Shown here one piece after another: positions 2,704 through 5,297 of a stretch of 5,297 nucleotides of DNA. Position 1 is the first letter of the stretch. Every line of letters starts with the position of its first letter. Source of the DNA: Armatimonadota bacterium (GTDB lineage Bacteria; Armatimonadota; Armatimonadia; Armatimonadales; Armatimonadaceae); contig JACMIS010000392.1 of the NCBI GenBank assembly GCA_014381035.1, positions 1 to 5,297 of the forward strand, written 5' to 3'. A program made the translations under genes and the position numbers. The notes under the pieces were generated by a model, which saw nothing but the letters and a program-made list of their open reading frames with translations, ran no database searches and was not told the origin of the DNA.

Positions 2704-2733
2704 CCTGAACATGTACAGGACTGTTTTATCCTG
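2704..2733. terminator. Possible weak bidirectional terminator between convergent genes
   Basis: The gap between the two convergent stop codons and the last codons of the minus-strand gene contains CCTG (2704-2707), CAGG(A) (2716-2720) and TCCTG (2729-2733), which can pair in two alternative short hairpins. TTTT at 2724-2727 follows the first. Stems are only 4-5 pairs plus a mismatch, so this is tentative. Confidence 0.25.
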
Positions 2734-3835
2734 CCAATCGTCGCAGTAAGGCTTCCGTGTCGCTCCAGTTCAGACACGCGTCCGTGACGGAAACGCCCCG
2801 GCGCAGTAACGATAACTCCTCGGGGTTGTCGGGGAGCTTCTGCTTTCCTGCTTCCAGATAGGACTCCAGCATCACGCCGACGATCCGTCCCGCGCCAGTG
2901 ACATGCGCCTCGCGGTTTTCTGCGCGCTGACGGGCGACCGATTCGCAGACCACTAACTGGTTTTGCGGTTCGTACCCGGAGTTGGCGTGCGAACAGTCCA
3001 CCACCATGGCGGTCGGTAGTCCGGAATCGGAGAGCTCGCGTCCCGCCGCCGACACCGACGCGAAATCGTAGTTGCCCGCATAGCGTCCTTTGGGTCCGGA
3101 TTGCGCGTCCACGACTTTGCCGCCGCGCAGGATCAGAACCGTGTCCGGGTTGCCTTCGGTGCGCTTCAGGCAGCAATGTCCGGCGTCGTCTACCGAGAAG
3201 AACGAATGTCGCCCGCGTGCCGAAAGCATCGCCTCGACCGCGACCTGGATACTCCCGCCCGTTCCGTTCTTGAATCCGACCGGATACGGCATCCCCGACG
3301 CCATCGCCCGGTGAGGCTGGGATTCCGTGGTGCGCGCACCGATCCCGGCGAACGCAACCAGATCGCCTAGAAAAGCCGGGGCGAGTGGGTCCAGCGGTTC
3401 GGTAGCGACCGGCAAACCCCATTCGGAGACCGTGGTAAATAAGTGCCGCACGACCCGCAAGCCTTCTGCCATATCGAACGAACCATCCATGCGCGGATCA
3501 TTGAGTAAGCCGCGCCACCCGACGGTGGTACGCGGCTTTTCGACATACACTCGCATCAAAATCGCGAGCCGGTCGGACAACTCCCGGTTCAATGCGGCTA
3601 ACTTTTCGGCGTATTCCAGACCTTCGTCCGGTGCGTGGATCGAGCAGGGACCGACGATGACTAAAAGCCGCTCGTCCTCGCCGCGCAAAATCCGCCGGAT
3701 GTCGCTCCGCCCGCGTTCGACCGTTTTAAGTGCGGCATCGGTCGGCGGGTACATCGCGAGCAGTTCGCGGGGCGTCGGGAGCGGCAGGGCACCGGAAAGA
3801 GTCGCGTCATCGTCAATAGTGTTCAGTTCCGGCAT
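2726..3835 (-). CDS. aroG: Class I 3-deoxy-7-phosphoheptulonate (DAHP) synthase, AroF/G/H type
   Basis: This enzyme condenses phosphoenolpyruvate with erythrose 4-phosphate to DAHP, the first step of the shikimate pathway to Phe, Tyr and Trp. The 369-residue protein is slightly longer than the E. coli isozymes (about 350-356). Active-site motifs are intact: metal-binding C64 in GPCSIH, R95, K100-P-R-T (KPRTTVGW), R168-T in GARTTESQ, K189 in GFKNGT, R237 in LRGGK, and metal ligands H283 (SHAN), E324 and D352. Compared with E. coli AroG, the stretch between LRGGK and SHAN is about 12 residues longer, and the one before E324 about 7 longer. The ATG at 3835 is preferred because it gives an N-terminus matching the family length and has GGA seven bases upstream. 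GTG at 3892 (AGGA 14 bases upstream) and GTG at 3913 are in-frame alternatives. Which isozyme (symbol aroF, aroG or aroH) cannot be told. Expression is probably controlled by the leader at 3836-4216. Confidence 0.96.
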   Translation of the reverse strand: MPELNTIDDDATLSGALPLPTPRELLAMYPPTDAALKTVERGRSDIRRILRGEDERLLVIVGPCSIHAPDEGLEYAEKLAALNRELSDRLAILMRVYVEKPRTTVGWRGLLNDPRMDGSFDMAEGLRVVRHLFTTVSEWGLPVATEPLDPLAPAFLGDLVAFAGIGARTTESQPHRAMASGMPYPVGFKNGTGGSIQVAVEAMLSARGRHSFFSVDDAGHCCLKRTEGNPDTVLILRGGKVVDAQSGPKGRYAGNYDFASVSAAGRELSDSGLPTAMVVDCSHANSGYEPQNQLVVCESVARQRAENREAHVTGAGRIVGVMLESYLEAGKQKLPDNPEELSLLRRGVSVTDACLNWSDTEALLRRLAG

Positions 3836-3847
3836 AGGTTGTTCCGC

Positions 3848-3865
3848 GACAAAACAAGTTTTGTC
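3848..3865. repeat. Perfect inverted repeat just upstream of the DAHP synthase start
   Basis: GACAAAAC-AA-GTTTTGTC: 8-base arms around a two-base centre, ending 12 bases before the ATG at 3835. It could be an operator or a small mRNA hairpin next to the ribosome-binding site. If translation starts at the upstream GTG (3892) it would instead be coding. It does not match the E. coli TyrR or TrpR consensus as I know them. Confidence 0.55.
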
Positions 3866-3939
3866 GGAGGCGATAGGTTGTGTTCGGCTCACGGTCGGTG
3901 TTCGTTTCCTCACAGGATAGTGCGTTCGATTTTTCGCAT

Positions 3940-3974
3940 AAAAAAACCTGCCCGTTTTGTGTCCGGGCAGGTTT
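3940..3974 (-). terminator. Intrinsic terminator in the DAHP synthase leader
   Basis: On the minus strand AAACCTGCCCG (3974-3964) pairs perfectly with CGGGCAGGTTT (3954-3944), giving an 11-bp stem with a 9-base loop. A run of seven T residues (3946-3940) begins at the end of the stem. It lies about 105 bases before the DAHP synthase ATG and downstream of a good promoter, so it would stop transcripts before they reach the gene. It could alternatively serve as the terminator of the surface-protein gene ending at 4232. On the plus strand the tail is only TTTCTC, so plus-strand termination would be weak. Confidence 0.85.
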
Positions 3975-4014
3975 CTCGCGGTTTTTCGATTCGCGGTTGG
4001 TTCAGCGTCTTTGC

Positions 4015-4176
4015 TCAAACTGTTTGTTCTGCGCCCGTTTTTTTTGTTTGCCCTGGATAAAAGTAATATCCAAAGGCATACCACTCCCGCCAGAACAAAC
4101 CGGCACCGAACGTCGCCGACACAAAAGGCGTGGCGGATTCGATGATGCTATTGGCGTTGGCGCGTGTTTCGGGCAT
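4015..4176 (-). CDS. Putative aromatic-rich leader peptide of the DAHP synthase gene
   Basis: A 53-codon frame from ATG at 4176 to TGA at 4017-4015. Codons 4095-4057 read FWREWYAFGYYFY, nine aromatic residues of thirteen (two Trp, four Tyr, three Phe), followed by PGQTKKTGAEQTV and the stop. No conserved protein domain is recognised. The cluster lies between a good promoter and an intrinsic terminator ahead of an aromatic-pathway gene, which suggests a regulatory leader whose translation is sensed. The start is uncertain: ATG 4176 lies only a few bases after the predicted transcription start and lacks a ribosome site, and GTG 4122 would give 35 residues, also without a clear site. A competing 25-codon frame (ATG 4079 to stop 4004-4002) has GGGAG four bases before its ATG but is not aromatic-rich; it weakens the case somewhat. 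Confidence 0.45.
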   Translation of the reverse strand: MPETRANANSIIESATPFVSATFGAGLFWREWYAFGYYFYPGQTKKTGAEQTV

Positions 4177-4188
4177 TGCTTGGAAAAC

Positions 4189-4216
4189 ACTATACCACAA
4201 TAAGGACATCTGGCAA
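4189..4216 (-). promoter_or_regulatory. Sigma70-like promoter for the DAHP synthase leader
   Basis: On the minus strand TTGCCA (4216-4211, five of six to TTGACA), a 16-base spacer, and TATAGT (4194-4189, five of six to TATAAT). Transcription would start near 4182-4181, giving a leader of about 346 bases before the ATG at 3835. It begins only 16 bases after the stop codon of the upstream surface-protein gene. No comparable promoter is seen between the terminator and the DAHP synthase start. Confidence 0.65.
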
Positions 4217-4231
4217 CAGAGCAAACACCGT

Positions 4232-5005
4232 CTATTGCCGTTTGCGTAGCGCGACACCGATCATCAGCGCACCGGAAAGTAGTGCGTAGCCGCCGGTGGG
4301 CAACTCCGGAACGACGACCGGGGGTGTCAGGCTGTAGAACACATCATCCACTACGAACAGTTCGTCACTCGGCGGACTGAATGTGAAGGTGGCAGTGGTG
4401 AATGTCTGCCCCTGCTCGGCGATCAGCCCGAAAAACTGGACGCCGCCAGTGCGGTCACTCGGGTTGAGCACAAACGAAGAAGCGTTCGCTTCGTTGAAAC
4501 CCAGGGCAATATTTCCTTGCGACGGGCTGGTCCCCAGACCGCTGATGTAGGCACCGAAAAATCTTTGCGGAACGTCGAATGTGAAAGTGATCACGACCGG
4601 TTGCGCGGTATCGTTGCCTGGATTGCTACGCAGGCGTTTCGCGCCTCCGGTTGTTGTGTTGAAGCCGCCGGTCGCGTTGCCTAAGCCGCCCGTATTATCT
4701 AGGATGTTCGGCTGGGTCAGAAGGACGTTGGCACCGAAATCTATGTCGTAACCGTTCCCCGCGAAGGTTGTATAGGCTCCGGGCGTCGCGCTCTCAAAAT
4801 CTTCTATCGTCGGGGCGACTCCGATAGCCGCGACAAAAAGGTTGCGGGCGGCGTCACTGTTCGGCACGTTGGCGCGGTTGACCCCGAGATTAGGCGCACC
4901 CGCATCCCGCGCGGTGTAGGTGGTCGCCTGCGCGAAGGCAGGAGACATACCACAAAAAGTGACGGCAGCGAGAACACAGGCGCGGACAAGGTTTATAGAC
5001 GGCAT
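4232..5005 (-). CDS. Secreted protein with PEP-CTERM-like C-terminal sorting signal
   Basis: This 257-residue protein has a signal peptide (residues 1-25, basic R8, hydrophobic core, cleavage after AFA before Q26). A Gly/Asn/Thr-rich beta-type body holds DFESATPG (69-76), FFGAYISGLG (149-158) and a terminal beta block, FFGLI (191-195) to VVDDVFYS (218-225), typical in style of PEP-CTERM surface proteins. The tail is P233-E-L-P-T-G, then a hydrophobic segment of about 15 residues, then R254-K-R-Q. In PEP-CTERM families this tripartite tail directs exosortase processing at the cell envelope; here PEL replaces PEP. LPTGG resembles but does not match the sortase LPXTG motif. The start at 5005 is fixed by the strong ribosome site at 5018-5013 and the signal peptide; a longer frame back to 5140 lacks such support. 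Specific function is unknown. No terminator is visible directly after its stop. Confidence 0.85.
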   Translation of the reverse strand: MPSINLVRACVLAAVTFCGMSPAFAQATTYTARDAGAPNLGVNRANVPNSDAARNLFVAAIGVAPTIEDFESATPGAYTTFAGNGYDIDFGANVLLTQPNILDNTGGLGNATGGFNTTTGGAKRLRSNPGNDTAQPVVITFTFDVPQRFFGAYISGLGTSPSQGNIALGFNEANASSFVLNPSDRTGGVQFFGLIAEQGQTFTTATFTFSPPSDELFVVDDVFYSLTPPVVVPELPTGGYALLSGALMIGVALRKRQ

Positions 5006-5012
5006 ATTTTTT

Positions 5013-5018
5013 CCTCTC
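5013..5018 (-). promoter_or_regulatory. Shine-Dalgarno GAGAGG that fixes the start of the surface-protein gene
   Basis: GAGAGG lies seven bases (AAAAAAT) before the ATG at 5005. It decides this start over the in-frame ATG at 5140, which would put 45 charged, non-secretory residues in front of the signal peptide. Confidence 0.8.
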
Positions 5019-5177
5019 AACGATAGGGCGGCTACATCAAGGTAGTCAAGGATTTGACCGAGGACCGAATGGTCGTTTCCCAGCGAACACCTTTCGGGAA
5101 CCGGGCGGGTGAATCCTTCACGTCTGAGGCGCAGCGGCATAATGTCACCTTTTTTCTTTTCCGTGGGGCTTATTCAT

Positions 5178-5297
5178 ATGAAGGACATCCAAACTCTGAT
5201 CGGGCAGGCGGCGGGCGGCGACGCGAACGCTTTCGACGAAATCGTGCGCCGGTACCAGAACCCCGCCGTGGCGTATGCGTATTCGCTGCTCGGCTCG
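5178..5297 (+). CDS. ECF-type RNA polymerase sigma factor, N-terminal fragment (cut by right edge)
   Basis: Only the first 40 codons are present. The pattern LIGQAAGGDANAFDEIVRRY (residues 7-26) followed by VAYAYSLLGS is the start of sigma70 region 2 as found in ECF sigma factors (usual form: L-x-x-A-x-x-G-D-x-x-A-F-x-x-L-V-x-x-Y). It would direct core RNA polymerase to a small regulon, often held by a cognate anti-sigma factor encoded next to it; none can be seen here. ATG 5178 is favoured, with GGGG ending nine bases upstream; GTG 5163 is in frame and possible but lacks a ribosome site. It is divergent from the surface-protein gene with 172 bases between. Subgroup and target cannot be judged from this fragment. 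Confidence 0.82.
   Translation, partial: MKDIQTLIGQAAGGDANAFDEIVRRYQNPAVAYAYSLLGS

Follow-up and report, generated by a model that had tools for sequence, protein, structure and literature searches.

A putative transcription attenuator with tryptophan, tyrosine and phenylalanine control codons ahead of a DAHP synthase gene in Armatimonadota

DAHP synthase feeds three end products, and in the 5,297-nt stretch of Armatimonadota DNA analyzed here (the window), the gene for this enzyme lies behind a short open reading frame (ORF) in which codons for tryptophan, tyrosine and phenylalanine are crowded together. Does this ORF serve as a leader whose translation governs transcription into the gene, and if so, which of the three products does it read? 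We favor an answer in which the ORF belongs to a ribosome-mediated transcription attenuator that has Trp, Tyr and Phe as its control amino acids, a reading to which we assign a probability of roughly 0.87.

Layout of the locus

On the minus strand of the window, a sigma-70-type promoter is followed by an ATG, a 53-codon ORF, an intrinsic terminator and the DAHP synthase gene. The promoter-like site (4216..4189, minus strand) consists of the -35-like hexamer TTGCCA (4211..4216), a spacing of 16 nt and the -10 hexamer TATAGT (4189..4194), which is preceded by TG and ends 12 nt 5' of the leader ATG. It was the only such site that a promoter scan recovered on either strand of positions 3500 to 4800, where shuffled sequences gave an expectation of 0.5. 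The placement of the frame between a promoter and a terminator, as given in the preliminary description of this DNA, was upheld.

The leader ORF (P0001; 4015..4176, minus strand) comprises 53 codons plus a TGA stop codon, as established by translation and by close homologues (P0002, P0003 and P0124). Its codons 28 to 40 (4057..4095, minus strand) read FWREWYAFGYYFY, in which 9 of the 13 codons specify aromatic residues (2 Trp, 4 Tyr and 3 Phe); translation, shuffles and dN/dS all bear on this control-codon cluster. The aromatic frame noted earlier is thus real, but the interval first assigned to it (4015 to 4125), while lying inside the ORF, covers only its 3' two-thirds. Between the cluster and the stop codon lies the predicted 5' strand of an antiterminator (region 2), whose core, ACGGGCGC (4029..4038, minus strand), is located 14 to 21 nt before the stop codon and is complementary to the 5' arm of the terminator by predicted pairing.

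The terminator itself (AAACCTGCCCG and CGGGCAGGTTT, followed by a T run; 3941..3977, minus strand) was detected by both a pattern scan and folding, with a folding energy of -22.7 kcal/mol. Its 5' arm begins 40 nt after the leader stop codon, exactly the distance originally proposed. The gene beyond it (2726..3835, minus strand) encodes a 369-amino-acid DAHP synthase of the AroG/aroFGH (type I alpha) class, with a match to PF00793 and one above the cut-off to TIGR00034, in agreement with its first identification. The gene starts at an ATG at position 3835, and an in-frame GTG at position 3892 provides an alternative start.

Several other elements were observed in the window. A perfect 18-bp palindrome, GACAAAACTTGTTTTGTC, occupies positions 3848 to 3865, just 5' of the DAHP synthase ATG; three exact copies occur in a related genome, G010 (L136 to L138), where the beginning of trpE also has a near copy (L130:1364). 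No exact copies were found in the related genomes G001, G009, G012 and G002, and a reversed control pattern likewise gave none. This palindrome may be a dispersed palindromic repeat. At positions 4235 to 5140 of the minus strand, inspection by eye revealed a possible exported protein with a PEP-CTERM-like C terminus, for which there was no Pfam or NCBIfam match. The ORF is flanked by the leader promoter on one side and, on the other, by a divergent start at position 5178 that looks sigma-factor-like by eye; the 40 residues of the latter inside the window gave no Pfam match. In the corresponding locus of G001 (L001), the 4235-to-5140 ORF is absent and the sigma-factor-like start is directly divergent. 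Lastly, a single ORF at positions 3 to 1568 of the minus strand combines a family 3 solute-binding protein with an ABC permease domain (PF00497 and PF00528).

Leaders in related genomes

The nearest relative that we found is the metagenome-assembled genome ES-bin-63 (G001; locus L001, JACMMA010000258.1), whose DAHP synthase is 98% identical to that of the window. A search with the leader peptide returned the full-length close homologues P0002, P0003 and P0124, and P0002, which is encoded at L001, is embedded in the identical order of promoter, ORF, terminator and DAHP synthase. One record labels the protein of this contig Akkermansiaceae, and the genome title reads Armatimonadota; the former label is probably wrong. 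A further protein, P0128, carries RYYFYFFFFWFYY and is known here from the protein alone. A pattern search for TGGTGGTGG gave no information, and a viral scan with the DAHP synthase of the window found no relative.

AroG-type DAHP synthase occurs in 10 of the 12 genomes of G001's family and in 79 of 291 genomes of the phylum (92 places). We read the upstream regions of 85 of these places, from 76 of the 79 genomes, which together with the window gave 86 regions; upstream sequence was short at two of the 85 (219 nt at L045 and 49 nt at L063). The seven places omitted were matches without a gene start (G220:C8, G151, two in G122, G219, G087:C197 and G007:C116), which places the genomes G151, G122 and G219 outside this survey. 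A short ORF with at least 8 aromatic residues in 15 codons was present in 7 of the 86 regions (the window, G001, G010, G012, G009, G002 and G003), whereas the best ORF in each of the other 79 regions reached 6 or fewer. All six relatives belong to G001's family, in which the layout is therefore found in 6 of the 10 genomes with AroG-type DAHP synthase; the DAHP synthase loci L004 and L005 are among those with leaders. The expectation that related genomes would carry the frame was thus borne out in six cases, but the remaining four family genomes with the enzyme (G005, G006, G007 and G008) lack an aromatic leader. At the 75 DAHP synthase places elsewhere in the phylum, the layout was not found (0 of 75), and no leader with at least 7 aromatic residues was seen within 450 nt upstream. 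Since five of the six relatives' leaders were located by looking upstream of DAHP synthase genes, and only that of G001 via its peptide, the adjacency of leader and DAHP synthase gene in the seven cases is partly by construction.

A candidate with 6 aromatic residues at L007 was rejected: an inverted repeat resembling a terminator makes up much of its frame, and most of the aromatic residues are missing from the related loci L008, L009 and L011. Separately, these four loci, which represent the four family genomes lacking an aromatic leader, share a short ORF (e.g., MVNFGSIVKHRYGTNATVGAMPYRHQDWLSVL, as read by eye) in the last ~100 nt before the DAHP synthase gene, with a stop/start overlap of ATGA that suggests translational coupling.

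The seven leaders share a common plan, namely, a near-leaderless ORF of 24 to 56 codons with 8 to 10 aromatic residues in 15 codons, Trp, Tyr and Phe all present, followed by a terminator and the DAHP synthase gene. Counted over the whole peptide, the Trp, Tyr and Phe residues number 2, 4 and 5 in the window (53 codons); 2, 3 and 5 in G001 (53 codons); 1, 5 and 4 in G010 (56 codons); 2, 3 and 4 in G012 (34 codons); 2, 5 and 5 in G009 (53 codons); 1, 3 and 4 in G002 (24 codons); and 1, 2 and 5 in G003 (24 codons). Because the ATG falls 10 to 17 nt past a TATAGT, TATATT, TATACT or TACAGT box in the six relatives (by eye), and 12 nt past it in the window, all seven ORFs are probably leaderless or nearly so. 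The distance from stop codon to terminator ranges from 20 to 40 nt, and an intrinsic terminator separates the ORF from the DAHP synthase gene in all seven (five by folding; G002 and G003 by pattern scan). The G012 terminator has a long loop that the pattern scan missed, and it folds at -21.1 kcal/mol. When the upstream regions were aligned, the aromatic codons and a stop before the terminator were kept while the rest of the peptide drifted, the outcome that had been anticipated for a true leader. The retention of aromatic residues, stop and terminator in six related genomes also supports the original proposal of mixed Trp/Tyr/Phe control of DAHP synthase.

Could the ORF, together with the terminator behind it, instead be the gene for a small protein that is functional in itself, next to which the DAHP synthase gene merely happens to lie with a promoter of its own? 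Within the closest group, the whole 53-amino-acid peptide, N terminus included, is 66 to 70% identical to that of the window (P0002, P0003 and P0124), as might be expected of such a protein. Between genera, however, its length varies from 24 to 56 residues, and the peptides scarcely align outside the aromatic run, with little but aromatic richness in common. The leader peptide has no Pfam match, and no promoter-like site was found between the terminator and the DAHP synthase gene in the scan of both strands of positions 3500 to 4800. A small protein would also leave the antiterminator pairing described below unexplained. We consider this explanation unlikely.

The order of residues within the cluster is relevant to a second alternative. 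The leader peptide TnaC stalls the ribosome as a nascent chain, and a leader of this type would sense a free aromatic amino acid rather than a shortage of charged tRNA; a hydrophobic aromatic stretch could conceivably contact the exit tunnel. Nascent-chain sensors nevertheless generally require fixed residues, and here the order is not fixed: Phe and Tyr interchange, Trp comes first in the cluster of the window and last in that of G010, and Tyr33 of the window is Leu in G001 and His in P0124. Stalling of the TnaC type thus appears very improbable compared with stalling at control codons.

We asked how the cluster compares with chance and with the rest of the ORF. None of 2,000 dinucleotide shuffles reached the observed number of aromatic residues in 15 codons for any of the five leaders analyzed (window, G001, G010, G012 and G009). 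Chance composition as the origin of the cluster is excluded by these shuffles together with the maximum of 6 aromatic residues in the other upstream regions. Between the window and G001, the leader shows 7 synonymous and 16 nonsynonymous codon differences, yet 8 of the 9 aromatic positions in the cluster keep their residue (the exception being Tyr33 to Leu), and three cluster codons have changed synonymously. The corresponding dN/dS values were 0.07 for the cluster, 0.57 for the rest of the leader ORF and 0.02 for the DAHP synthase gene. Since the cluster offers only ~6 synonymous sites, its dN/dS value is no more than suggestive of constraint at the protein level. The parts of the leader, their order, their conservation and the constraint on the aromatic codons can all be read from the DNA itself.

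Predicted competition between antiterminator and terminator

For the attenuator that we favor, we infer that transcription begins just 5' of the leader ATG and that the leader is translated by a ribosome trailing RNA polymerase. A scarcity of charged tRNA for any one of Trp, Tyr and Phe would stall the ribosome at the cluster. The segment that separates cluster and stop codon would then pair with the terminator's 5' arm, and RNA polymerase would read on into the DAHP synthase gene. If Trp, Tyr and Phe were all plentiful, the ribosome would reach the stop codon and mask this segment, and the terminator would form.

Computation supports the idea that the two pairings exclude each other and that the choice between them depends on where the ribosome stands. 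A segment between cluster and stop codon is complementary to the 5' arm of the terminator in the window (ACGGGCGC) and in G010 (CCGGGAGCAG), as computed, and a segment of the same type was identified by eye in G009 (CCGGGCGCAGG) and G002 (CCGGGACGG). For every codon at which a ribosome could stand, we calculated the probability that the terminator 5' arm pairs with upstream sequence of the nascent RNA while the 3' arm has yet to be transcribed. At codons of the cluster, this probability was mostly 0.6 to 0.9, with lower values at a few codons (down to 0.44 in G010). The position of the drop ranged from the last aromatic codon (G003) to ~10 codons downstream of it (G001). At an offset of +12, the values for the last aromatic codon and the stop codon, respectively, were 0.73 and 0.07 in the window, 0.62 and 0.02 in G001, 0.87 and 0.02 in G010, 0.68 and 0.02 in G012, 0.87 and 0.41 in G009, 0.58 and 0.00 in G002, and 0.36 and 0.43 in G003. 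For a ribosome at the last aromatic codon, the antiterminator is thus predicted to be free in six of the seven leaders (0.58 to 0.87), and for one at the stop codon it is predicted to be masked in five (0.00 to 0.07; 0.41 to 0.43 in the other two). By this folding prediction, G003 fails to switch at its last aromatic codon, and its upstream pairing stands at 0.85 one codon earlier.

We compared the stalled-minus-stop difference with that obtained after shuffling the intervening segment. The combined P values, which count related leaders as independent, were 1.2e-5 (+12), 2e-6 (+9) and 0.0023 (+15) for the seven leaders. With one leader per close pair (five leaders, G002 included), they were 1.3e-5 (+12), 5e-6 (+9) and 0.0037 (+15), and when G003 was used instead of its sister G002, they were 2e-4 (+12), 5e-5 (+9) and 0.025 (+15). 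Stalled pairing taken alone was not unusual relative to shuffles in the window and G001 (28 and 48 of 200 shuffles as high, respectively); it was unusual in G010 and G012 (1 and 2 of 200) and less so in G009 (11 of 200). The antiterminator duplex had z scores of -3.4 to +0.3 in these five leaders (-1.3 in the window). An anti-antiterminator (1:2) pairing was present in all five, no better than in shuffles (z of -0.25 to -1.6), and it appears in the full fold of the window leader region. Competition between antiterminator and terminator that depends on ribosome position is accordingly predicted for the seven leaders as a set, and clearly so for five.

The region from the leader to the DAHP synthase start folds better than shuffles (z of -3.5), and together with a terminator ahead of the gene this would also be compatible with an RNA element bound by a protein or a ligand (TRAP-like, T-box or riboswitch) that uses the terminator while the ORF is incidental. 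Part of this z score comes from the terminator, however. Searches for a T-box, a trp leader or any other Rfam family gave no match at the gathering score in the window. Moreover, only the aromatic codons and the complementary arms are common to the different genera, with no other shared block seen, and the dN/dS pattern points to coding. We attach very little weight to this possibility relative to an attenuator read by the ribosome.

The same calculation was applied to leaders ahead of trpE. Of five trpE loci in the family, those of G002, G003, G009 and G012 (L126 to L129) have an ORF with Trp-Trp-Trp and a terminator upstream of the gene. Such an ORF is missing at the G010 trpE gene, and no trpE gene was found in G001. 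The expected high-then-low pattern was clear only in the G012 trpE leader. In that of G002, the probability fell from 0.87 to 0.12 just past the Trp codons and returned to 0.60 at the stop codon, and no fall was seen in G003 and G009. Since only one of the four fits clearly, the stall calculation is an imperfect guide. Because Trp-Trp-Trp leaders with terminators precede trpE, this mode of control nevertheless seems to exist in the family with codons matched to the product. The terminator region at L126 carries a tandem duplication of its 5' part. No leader was seen at six loci whose match length suggests a second DAHP synthase, of type I beta (five plus L111), or at five pheA loci, where the matches begin inside the gene and only part of the scanned 600 nt is truly upstream.

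Relation to known leaders and implications

The leader most probably belongs to a known mechanism class, within which its three control amino acids and its conserved, near-leaderless organization would set it apart as a variant. The trpL and pheL leaders likewise combine a leader ORF, control codons and alternative antiterminator and terminator structures, but each has one control amino acid and a ribosome-binding site, whereas the Armatimonadota ORF starts at or near the predicted 5' end of the transcript. Multi-amino-acid leaders are exemplified by thrL (Thr and Ile) and ilvL (Ile, Val and Leu), in which, as proposed here, one leader reads several end products of a branched pathway, although the pathway differs. 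The trpE leaders of the family similarly comprise a short ORF, a terminator and a biosynthetic gene, with a control run of Trp-Trp-Trp only. A leader named aroR, upstream of aroF in Corynebacterium glutamicum, was reportedly described by Neshat et al. in 2014.

The preliminary description knew of no mixed-aromatic leader in front of a DAHP synthase gene, and aroR provides such a precedent: the passages devoted to it give Phe-Tyr-Phe as its control residues (PMC4046766, PMC11802643). According to one of them, aroR responds under Phe limitation, and Tyr availability is without effect (PMC11802643, which also names the Escherichia coli trpL and pheL attenuators). Both systems place a leader peptide with aromatic control codons ahead of DAHP synthase, and attenuation, predicted for the Armatimonadota leaders, is likewise the mode of control of aroR. 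The likeness to aroR is one of kind only. Trp is not named in those passages, whereas the Armatimonadota leaders carry 8 to 10 aromatic residues in 15 codons with Trp in seven of seven. In Acholeplasma, sequence comparison yielded the motif uORFC-13-1 upstream of aroF, with a U run encoding at least one Phe, in a report whose relevant section also cites an older hypothesis of attenuation at E. coli aroF (PMC8632094). This candidate resembles ours in pairing an upstream ORF with a terminator ahead of DAHP synthase, and it differs in its U run for at least one Phe and in its phylum. The C. glutamicum aroR leader and the Acholeplasma candidate are, on the portions of these sources that concern them, the nearest precedents. 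A comparative study of Actinobacteria, in the part that treats phenylalanine and tyrosine operons, reports no conserved RNA structures upstream of them (PMC1262725). In the open-licence PubMed Central literature, which most subscription papers lie outside, we found no description of a leader with all three aromatic amino acids as control codons, and Armatimonadetes, attenuation and leader peptide had no match together.

We lean toward the view that the leader acts as a three-input OR gate, in which too little charged tRNA for any single one of Trp, Tyr and Phe would be enough to raise transcription of one DAHP synthase gene, with the last aromatic codon lying near the last position at which the antiterminator is free. 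If so, then as far as we have searched, no earlier description exists of a leader that reads Trp, Tyr and Phe together. In this family, the AroG-type transcript seems to read Trp, Tyr and Phe together and that of trpE, in four of the genomes, only Trp, so that nature supplies a way to set codon content against position in the pathway. The leader might also serve as a reporter for three tRNA charging states. For a little-studied phylum, it would add an example of ribosome-mediated attenuation, one with near-leaderless leader ORFs.
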